Of a DNA stretch of 64,000 nucleotides, positions 7,901 through 51,669 are shown piece after piece. The notes under the pieces were generated by a model. It was given only the letters and a program-made list of their open reading frames with translations, had not been told where the DNA came from and made no database searches. Source of the stretch: Halorubrum rubrum (GTDB lineage Archaea; Halobacteriota; Halobacteria; Halobacteriales; Haloferacaceae); contig NZ_JANHDM010000002.1 of NCBI RefSeq assembly GCF_024494685.1, positions 186,001-250,000 of the forward strand, given 5' to 3'. Positions within the stretch are counted from its first letter, which is position 1, and each line of letters starts with the position of its first letter. Made by a program: the position numbers and the translations under genes.

Positions 7901-7973
7901 GCCCGGATGGTGTAGTGGCCCATCATACGACCCTGTCACGGTCGTGACGCGGGTTCAAATCCCGCTCCGGGCG
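7901..7973 (+). tRNA. tRNA-Asp (GTC), copy 1
   Basis: 73 nt without encoded CCA. The acceptor stem GCCCGGA pairs with TCCGGGC, discriminator G. The anticodon loop is CTGTCAC with anticodon GTC. The T-arm is CGGGTTCAAATCCCG. A TATA-like CTTATTT lies about 30 nt upstream. A short CCCC/GGGG hairpin follows directly (7975-7988). Confidence 0.97.
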
Positions 7974-8003
7974 TCCCCTCTTTCGGGGCCTCCGTCGCTG
8001 TCT

Positions 8004-8076
8004 GCCCGGATGGTGTAGTGGCCCATCATACGACCCTGTCACGGTCGTGACGCGGGTTCAAATCCCGCTCCGGGCG
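8004..8076 (+). tRNA. tRNA-Asp (GTC), copy 2
   Basis: Identical over all 73 nt to the copy at 7901-7973, 30 bp downstream of it. There is no separate TATA box, so both are probably made from one transcript. Directly after its 3' end begins a run of palindromes and a partial copy of the tRNA tail (8077-8256). Confidence 0.97.
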
Positions 8077-8077
8077 T

Positions 8078-8131
8078 ATTCTGTCGCCGCCAGTCGACGA
8101 GCGAAGCGAGTCGATACCGGCGGTGACGAAT
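8078..8131. repeat. Palindrome with GAGCGAAGCGA apex, abutting tRNA-Asp
   Basis: The arms 8078-8091 (ATTCTGTCGCCGCC) and 8119-8131 (GGCGGTGACGAAT) pair with one bulge and one mismatch or wobble. The inner stem is GTCGAC (8093-8098) with GTCGAT (8110-8115). The centre is exactly the 11-nt loop GAGCGAAGCGA (8099-8109). It starts two bases after the tRNA 3' end. Confidence 0.8.
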
Positions 8132-8140
8132 CGTTTCAGA

Positions 8141-8210
8141 GGGATTTGAACCAGGGAGTGAAGCGAGCGAAGCGAGCGGAACGAGTGGGGTTCAAATCCC
8201 GCTCCGGGCG
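8141..8210. repeat. tRNA-Asp tail copy plus inverted T-arm copy
   Basis: 8188-8210 repeats exactly the last 23 nt of tRNA-Asp (T-arm and acceptor 3' strand, corresponding to 8054-8076). 8141-8152 (GGGATTTGAACC) is the inverted complement of 8189-8200 (GGTTCAAATCCC), so a T-arm fragment is also present in opposite orientation. The palindrome so formed is centred on another GAGCGAAGCGA (8165-8175). The tail copy has the look of an attachment-site scar at a tRNA gene. Confidence 0.8.
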
Positions 8211-8256
8211 TTCTCGACGAACGATTCGGCGAGCGTAGCGAGCCGTTCGTCGAGAA
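8211..8256. repeat. Palindrome directly after the tRNA-Asp tail copy
   Basis: TTCTCGACGAAC (8211-8222) pairs perfectly with GTTCGTCGAGAA (8245-8256). After a 5-nt bulge the inner GGC/GCC closes on the 11-nt loop GAGCGTAGCGA (8231-8241). It begins at the base after the tail copy ends. 8257-8379 is plain spacer up to the permease gene. Confidence 0.8.
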
Positions 8257-8379
8257 CGCTCGCACGAGGGTGTGATCGGTCATTCGTTCGACGATACCGA
8301 CCGCAGTCGGAGCGGAGCGTATCACGGACGAGGCCTCGAGGGAGTCGAAAGCGAGGAGCGCCGCGGGCGGGTTCGGGAC

Positions 8380-51303: not shown

Positions 51304-51316
51304 CGTCCTGACGGAG
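51304..51316 (-). repeat. tRNA-Arg tail fragment, 13 bp
   Basis: CGTCCTGACGGAG, identical to the last 13 nt (complement) of the tRNA-Arg gene at 51597-51609. 149 bp from the next fragment. Confidence 0.7.
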
Positions 51317-51332
51317 TCCTGCGCGAGCGGTG

Positions 51333-51357
51333 CGAGGGCGACCGAAGGGAGCCCTCG
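51333..51357. repeat. Hairpin with GACCGAAGGGA loop
   Basis: CGAGGGC (51333-51339) and GCCCTCG (51351-51357) around the 11-nt loop GACCGAAGGGA. It is followed at 51365-51377 by GCGGC-GAA-GCCGC. Confidence 0.7.
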
Positions 51358-51415
51358 AAAGTGAGCGGCGAAGCCGCGAACGAGCGAGCGCAGGGCACGT
51401 CAGGAGGCGAACGCC

Positions 51416-51444
51416 GCGGCTGTCGAACGAAGTGAGACAGCCGC
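51416..51444. repeat. Hairpin with GAACGAAGTGA loop
   Basis: Perfect 9-bp stem GCGGCTGTC / GACAGCCGC around GAACGAAGTGA (51425-51435), 8 bp from the second tRNA-Arg tail fragment. Confidence 0.75.
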
Positions 51445-51452
51445 AAAGTGAG

Positions 51453-51475
51453 CGTCCTGACGGAGATTTGAACTC
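51453..51475 (-). repeat. tRNA-Arg tail fragment, 23 bp
   Basis: Exact copy of the last 23 nt of tRNA-Arg (51597-51619), covering the acceptor 3' strand and most of the T-arm. It lies 144 bp from the intact tail. It is typical of an attachment-site duplication left by an integrated element. Confidence 0.8.
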
Positions 51476-51543
51476 GAAAAGACGATCCGGTCGCTCACTT
51501 CGTTCGCTCCCGGCTGCGACTTTTCTACTCAGATCTCCTCGGA

Positions 51544-51597
51544 GTTTCTTTCAGCACGTGCTGCTCGCTTCGCTCGCAGCGTTGTGCTGAAAGAAAC
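51544..51597. repeat. Strong palindrome at the 3' end of tRNA-Arg
   Basis: Arms GTTTCTTTCAGCAC (51544-51557) and GTGCTGAAAGAAAC (51584-51597) are perfect over 14 bp; inner stem GCTGC/GCAGC; apex loop TCGCTTCGCTC, i.e. GAGCGAAGCGA on the minus strand (51565-51575). The outermost base is the tRNA discriminator position, so the hairpin begins directly at the tRNA end. Confidence 0.85.
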
Positions 51598-51669
51598 GTC
51601 CTGACGGAGATTTGAACTCCGGTCCCTGGCTCCGCAAGCCAAGAGGATAGTCCACTACCCTACCAGGAC
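51597..51669 (-). tRNA. tRNA-Arg (GCG)
   Basis: 73 nt on the minus strand. Acceptor GTCCTGG pairs with TCAGGAC with one G-T pair; anticodon loop TTGCGGA with anticodon GCG, reading CGC; T-arm CGGAGTTCAAATCTCCG. No encoded CCA. A TATA-like CTTAAGTAT (minus, 51691-51699) is about 26 nt before the mature 5' end. Confidence 0.95.

Follow-up and report, generated by a model that had tools for sequence, protein, structure and literature searches.

What do the palindromes and partial tRNA copies behind the tRNA-Asp genes of Halorubrum rubrum represent? The window in which they lie, by which we mean the whole stretch of 64,000 nucleotides that was analysed (contig NZ_JANHDM010000002.1, positions 186,001 to 250,000), holds a similar arrangement at a tRNA-Arg gene, and a sequence-only reading had argued from the pair for a specific element that targets tRNA 3' ends. 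Our analysis supports such an element. How it is targeted is unproven, no enzyme has been identified, and that the units move is an inference drawn by comparing genomes. The explanation that we prefer, at a probability of roughly 0.5, is that these are non-autonomous, gene-free cassettes, specific for tRNA 3' ends and moved in trans by site-specific recombination.

Architecture of the units at tRNA-Asp and tRNA-Arg

Two identical tRNA-Asp(GTC) genes lie on the plus strand at 7901..7973 and 8004..8076 (both called by ARAGORN and matched to each other as an identical 74-nt repeat), and the second is the anchor of the array. Its tail runs from the T-arm to the discriminator base (8054-8076), and all features behind it are on the same strand. 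A first hairpin module, H1 (8078..8131; apex GAGCGAAGCGAG; fold of -30.0 kcal/mol), abuts the tRNA 3' end; the orthologous tRNA-Asp genes of relatives carry the same family of H1 modules. Next comes AGAGGGATTTGAACC (8138..8152), here called the inverted tail, which repeats the tRNA-Asp T-arm imperfectly and in inverted orientation (14/15 complementary); then a second hairpin module, H2 (8152..8187), of the CAGGGA...GA-GTGG class and supported by pattern matches and covariation; and, as the right end of the unit, 23 nt that reproduce the tRNA-Asp 3' tail without a mismatch (8188..8210; 24/24 with the T at 8211). A second unit begins with an H1-type hairpin (8211 to ~8258; apex GAGCGTAGCGAG) and retains a decayed inverted tail at 8263..8279, CACGAGGGTGTGATCGG against CACAAGGGTTTGAATC.. 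in relatives (comparison with L233 and L240). The apex GAGCG(A/T)AGCGAG occurs at 8099, 8165 and 8231 and elsewhere in the 64 kb solely at tRNA-Arg (four in total).

The sequence-only reading had already named several of these parts. Its two identical tRNA-Asp genes, its palindrome at 8078-8131 (our H1), its exact 23-bp tail copy, its next palindrome from 8211 to about 8256 and the apex common to three palindromes all held, as did its inverted T-arm piece (8141-8152), which is slightly longer than claimed. It had also noted that the spacing at the two tRNAs is similar: the tail-to-tail distance of 134 bp is confirmed for tRNA-Asp, and 144 bp was measured at tRNA-Arg. Absent from it were the conserved H2 hairpin and the decayed inverted tail of the second unit.

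The plan at tRNA-Arg is that of tRNA-Asp, on the minus strand. The tRNA-Arg(GCG) gene (51597..51669; ARAGORN) anchors the second array of the window and is followed by an H1 hairpin (51540..51596; the same module in L258, L277 and L281), an inverted tail CGAGGAGATCTGAG (51528..51541), an H2 hairpin of the GTCGCAGCC...GTC class (51481..51520) and an exact 23-nt copy of the tRNA-Arg tail (51453..51475). Behind these, on the same strand, lies a type-2 unit (51304..51452) that copies only the 3' end of the acceptor (GACTCCGTCAGGACG at 51304-51318); relatives carry it too, in varying order. The two tRNA genes are themselves placed differently among genomes. Most of the relatives compared (G001, G007, G012, G003) have them about 4 kb apart on one strand; in G001 they are convergent at about 360 bp, and in this window they face each other some 43 kb apart (8004-51669). 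The change of spacing would be an inversion plus growth of an island, with ends near both arrays, and recombination between the arrays is possibly responsible.

A unit consists of H1, inverted tail, H2 and tail, in that order, and at 230 tRNA loci its size is constantly small (83-207 bp, median 114). What the inverted tail repeats, imperfectly, is the T-arm of the host tRNA and sometimes its whole tail. In the second type of unit the acceptor end alone is copied. This architecture is shown directly by the sequences.

Tail matching and H2 folding

All 45 tRNA loci of this genome were fetched with their flanks and scanned, and 44 tRNAs entered a test of own against swapped tails. An exact match of at least 21 nt to the tRNA's own tail lies within 400 bp downstream of seven of the 44, whereas none of 1,892 swapped tail/downstream pairs in this genome shares even 18 nt; the copies are therefore not due to chance. 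Six further tRNAs carry shorter, decayed copies, and such decay beside intact copies suggests turnover and not a fixed function. Upstream copies are lacking in this genome apart from the trivial Asp-Asp duplication. Either of two outcomes would have counted against a targeted element, namely that no other tRNA in the genus has tail copies, or that copies are equally frequent upstream. Neither occurred: tRNAs of 15 kinds have such copies, and in this genome, the Asp-Asp pair aside, they lie downstream only.

The inverted tail is matched to the tRNA that it follows, which is likewise shown. The T-loop purine, its complement in the inverted tail and the copy are concordant in 155 of 167 distinct units, and the 11-nt acceptor part is identical at 11/11 positions in 115 of the 167, against 2.5% of random pairs. 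These 167 units came from an H2 pattern that demands intact T-arms and thus represent intact units only. Among the genus matches a T-arm lies 22-83 bp upstream in 114/121. The seven without a nearby T-arm were read singly: six turned out to be arrays at tRNAs in which the tail is mutated or set at another distance, a type-2 unit intervenes or H2 is inverted, and one (L223) is an orphan that adjoins IS genes after a rearrangement and is without an integrase. A larger autonomous parent element was considered and rejected, since none of the seven exceptions shows one.

That the structure of H2 is conserved is shown by covariation. In the short class, represented by 26 sequences of numerous genera and tRNAs, a five-pair stem is held while its sequence changes: one pair is CG in 18 and GC in 8, another AU in 16 and GC in 10, a third appears as GC, CG, AU or UA, and the inner stem has up to 10 double changes per pair. 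The covariation score is 0.220 against 0.099 after shuffling; pairing is seen in 97.6% of cells and falls to 21-44% once the partner is slid. The longer class gave the same outcome (0.237 against 0.130). Columns set by the search pattern are invariant and hence provide no evidence. Such compensatory changes imply that H2 is selected as a folded strand, of DNA or of RNA, and the data do not decide between the two: G.T and A.C cells are about equally frequent in the stems (11:8), so that the strand that folds is not singled out. A consensus CAGGGA...GACYG recurs in H2 across the order and at many unrelated tRNAs. A K-turn was tried as an explanation of the CAGGGA/GA loop and rejected, because the 3-nt bulge is absent. 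The segment from inverted tail through H2 to tail thus folds and covaries; recombination on that folded strand is an inference.

A rival explanation is a function in RNA, in which the units would be trailers of the tRNA transcript that act in termination, in 3' processing or as an attenuator, with the inverted tail pairing to the tRNA's own tail or to the copy. In its favour, every unit lies on the tRNA strand, and the apex prefers that strand by 100:6 in H1 and 97:0 in H2, with its tandem G.A on the sense strand; the succession of tail, inverted tail and tail resembles an attenuator; some H2 loops are TTCG-like; and hairpins are able to terminate transcription in Haloferax (PMC7237163). Against it, the unit is dispensable at a given tRNA, since sister species may have it, lack it, or carry it multiplied or in another order; selection on RNA should favour G.U, yet there is no such excess over A.C; and a bias for one strand is equally expected from site-specific insertion of DNA. 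We regard this explanation as unlikely.

Distribution and variation of the arrays

The signature of inverted tail, H2 and T-arm was found in 46 of 52 genomes of the genus, taken from its named relatives to be Halorubrum, with zero matches for a reversed pattern in the same 52. With an upstream T-arm added, the pattern matched 104/170 genomes and 22 of the 28 genera of the family. Of the genomes in a phylum sample, 55 of the 72 belonging to this order have the signature and none of 224 from other orders does; the reversed pattern again found nothing. A scan of 84,980 prokaryote species returned at least 80 matches; all the titled ones are haloarchaeal, among them Halorubrum, Haloferax, Halobellus, Haloarcula, Natrinema, Natrialba and Halorientalis. 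In these samples and among the titled matches, the cassettes are confined to salt-loving archaea, where they stand behind many tRNA genes.

Exact tandem arrays are shown at several tRNAs: 4 x 111 bp at tRNA-Lys, four units of 86-87 bp at tRNA-Leu, 3 x 106 at tRNA-Gln, 2 x 92 at tRNA-Glu and 2 x 119 at tRNA-Arg. A precise empty/filled pair is shown as well, at tRNA-Leu, where the site is empty here and filled in the sister genome G007, and the near-identical downstream flank is joined directly to the tail. This comparison of two genomes (G000/G007) has no outgroup, and insertion cannot be told from loss. Recombination between direct repeats is another possible source of the empty site and of the exact tandem copies.

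Modules and their order are exchanged between species. At the orthologous tRNA-Asp and tRNA-Arg (30 genomes each) they vary in kind, number and order, and in G001 they differ although the neighbourhood is 99% identical. Where the window has its two H1 modules as a-b, L233 and L240 have them as b-a; the second H1 of the window (8211..8258) is identical at 48/50 positions to the module directly 3' of tRNA-Asp in the sister species G007. The H1 module inspected stands directly 3' of a tail, be it the tRNA's own or a copy, in all 30 of the cases read (of 37 matches), and is confined to tRNA-Asp and tRNA-Ser(GGA), two genes with similar tails; no pair of tRNAs with dissimilar tails was found to have an H1 in common. 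Any transposition is thus limited to like tails or to exchange at the T-arm. Lys arrays with an Arg-type tail joined at the T-arm occur (L081, L086), and a 25-nt H2 core remains unchanged beside four different acceptor tails. In one of 121 cases (G028) H2 is flipped within its inverted T-arms, the product expected of recombination at inverted sites. Decay is polar, as is shown by the better fidelity of the copies proximal to the tRNA over the distal ones (31 to 5, p = 1.3e-5).

The tRNA-Leu of L083, L094, L220 and L221 has a second, 5'-truncated tRNA-Leu about 200 bp behind it, whose variable arm is split by a GTCGCAGCC-class H1-H2 unit and which is followed by a further complete unit. At tRNA-Arg(CCT) (L062, L077-L080, L222) two versions of the tail, CGCCGTGCCCG and CGTCGCGCCCG, are each on the tRNA or on the copy depending on the species; this looks as if tRNA 3' ends had been traded with the copies in the array, a possibility only. 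The tRNA-Gln of L058 (G015), and also that of L087, has an intron-like insertion after the anticodon region besides its downstream unit. Separately, pure target-site duplication was considered as the origin of the tails; it is weakened by tails unlike the adjacent tRNA (L062, L080), which could also be explained by copies that lag behind.

Much of this variation could arise passively. In such a scenario an ancestral palindromic trailer would have given rise to the units, and had them multiplied and shuffled, by hairpin-driven template switching, slippage and unequal crossing-over between short tail repeats, direct and inverted, without a dedicated enzyme. The exact tandem copies, the exchanges where tails share sequence (Asp/Ser and the T-arm chimeras), the H2 flipped between inverted repeats and the high stability of GC-rich hairpins all speak for it. 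It is countered by an order-wide H2 consensus with a covarying stem at many unrelated tRNAs, which is unlike the products of random mutation, by the confinement to tRNA 3' ends of one order and by the polarity towards the tRNA. Passive rearrangement remains possible.

Candidate movers and comparison with known systems

The analysis turned up neither an enzyme nor a circular intermediate nor an autonomous parent element. The units are gene-free: in none of 121 genus cases does an integrase lie between an H2 unit and its tRNA, and no gene-bearing version was seen among them. The 2.9 million viral contigs of IMG/VR gave a single match to the pattern, which is not viral (L076, 13744-13920): it is a chromosomal tRNA-Glu, followed by a unit and by the decayed form of another, and it lies right beyond the structural-gene end of a head-tailed provirus. 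BLAST against phage and plasmid records gave no match.

These searches bear on the proposal that the units are decayed att sites of tRNA-integrating viruses or plasmids, the tail copy being attR and the palindromes remains of attP arms. The block of identity from T-arm to gene end is indeed what T-loop integrases leave, and haloarchaea often harbour tRNA-integrating elements, which leave partial tRNAs behind (PMC7921747, PMC3119063). The constantly small size of the units at 230 tRNA loci, the lack of any gene-bearing case in 121 and the viral and plasmid searches argue against it. So do the integrases of this genome: no Phage_integrase (PF00589) was found within 50 kb of an array-bearing tRNA, and those near a tRNA are at genes without H1 or H2. 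We hold this origin to be very unlikely. The loci concerned, L005 (C19:269492) and L009 (C11:131992), have an integrase 0.9 and ~3.4-3.9 kb downstream of the tRNA and no H1/H2 array, and are likely to be conventional integrated elements.

A further explanation considered is that of IS200/IS605-type non-autonomous elements, mobilised by a Y1 transposase and with the inverted tail as guide to the cleavage site; PATEs of this sort, and integrated elements with tRNA repeats, have been described in Haloquadratum (PMC3119063). Two subterminal strand-specific hairpins, the lack of terminal inverted repeats (none were seen in the repeat lists or alignments) and the succession of inverted tail, H2 and tail, which has the topology of guide, hairpin and cleavage site, are points in favour. 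However, 11 of 52 genus genomes have no match to the Y1 transposase (PF01797), including G009 with six units, G015, G019 and G021; the sole Y1 (IS200-type) transposase of this genome is split into two pieces ~325 bp apart (C24:25584-26267; L321, L322); and the target is a 22-nt tRNA tail and not a motif of 4-6 nt. Since genomes without Y1 bear arrays, Y1 as a required mover was rejected, and we place this explanation last among the rivals, as very improbable.

Other known systems share single traits with the units. The PATEs of Haloquadratum walsbyi and IS200/IS605 elements are also short and non-coding, have palindromes near both ends and occur in haloarchaea (PMC3119063), whereas the tRNA units are strictly targeted to the tail with a copy of it, tandem, and present in genomes without Y1; IS200/IS605 insertion duplicates none of its target, whereas a tRNA unit brings or duplicates 11-24 nt of the tail. 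REP/RAYT sequences are likewise short, strand-specific, dispersed extragenic hairpins with a conserved apex, presumably moved in trans, but they lack the composite, tRNA-anchored build and the target-specific inverted repeat, and for the tRNA units no RAYT-like partner is known and the Y1 domain is missing from array-bearing genomes. MITEs are defined by transposon-related terminal inverted repeats and a short duplication of the target, whereas a tRNA unit opens on a T-rich stretch with H1, closes with the tRNA tail and has no such repeats. The att sites of SNJ2, HF1/HF2 and SSV-type elements similarly use the 3' part of a tRNA, from T-arm to gene end, which the element restores, but the tRNA units are ~100 bp long, integrase-free and tandem, and have an inverted tail and two hairpins. 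Integron cassettes with their attC sites come close in forming an array on a fixed anchor, from which the tRNA arrays too would grow, and in a varying order and content with the newest-looking cassette beside the anchor; the imperfect inverted repeat that folds round a variable hairpin at the end of an integron cassette may have its counterpart in the succession of inverted tail, H2 and tail. They differ in that the tRNA units are gene-free (86-148 bp, no ORF) and have no adjacent IntI or attI, that the core site is the T-arm/acceptor sequence of the host tRNA, matched per tRNA, and that behind every core site there is a further hairpin, H1.

Every known kind that was tested departs from the units in one defining feature or more, and on this ground we judge the units to be new in kind, a judgement that would shrink if the mover belonged to a known integrase family. 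No description of such units was found in the open-access literature searched; subscription papers were mostly outside the search, and the absence is probable, not certain. The nearest report is of 'partial tRNAs' beside full tRNAs in Haloferax gibbonsii (PMC7921747), probably the same objects, as they are tRNA fragments adjoining a full tRNA; the main text gives only their count and reports no hairpins, inverted tail, arrays or distribution.

In the reading that we favour, recombination in trans, a cassette of H1, inverted tail, H2 and tail starts right behind the final base of the tRNA gene and ends in a tail copy of its own; since it brings that copy, the tRNA would stay intact and the target be restored for the next insertion. 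Site-specific recombination at T-arm/tail sites would move the cassettes, and its substrate would probably be a single DNA strand that forms the H1 and H2 hairpins, in the manner of integron attC sites or the ends of REP and IS200. The putative trans-acting enzyme would most likely be a tyrosine recombinase, encoded by the host or by a mobile element, and arrays may grow outward from the tRNA. What favours this reading is the rebuilding from T-arm to gene end, which is the logic of T-loop tyrosine integrases, together with traits that by analogy are integron-like: hairpins confined to one strand, arrays that extend from an anchor and units that look freshest beside it. A bolder version, which we hold to be possible but less likely than not, is an unknown integron-like recombination system of haloarchaea that inserts gene-free, hairpin-folded cassettes beside tRNA genes and uses the tRNA 3' end as anchor and folded sites customised for each tRNA by the inverted T-arm copy.

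If the reading is true, the units would provide natural strand-folding sites whose structure covaries, and since arrays change within a genus and units are only ~100 bp long, the activity should lend itself to direct testing in Haloferax or Halorubrum by sequencing tRNA flanks. The reading would then also account for the unexplained 'partial tRNAs' of haloarchaeal annotations, and the tRNA flanks of haloarchaea would record an unrecognised recombination activity that extends across the whole order, leaves the tRNA unharmed because its 3' end is rebuilt, and adds to its arrays outward, as integrons do and as CRISPR arrays do from their leaders.
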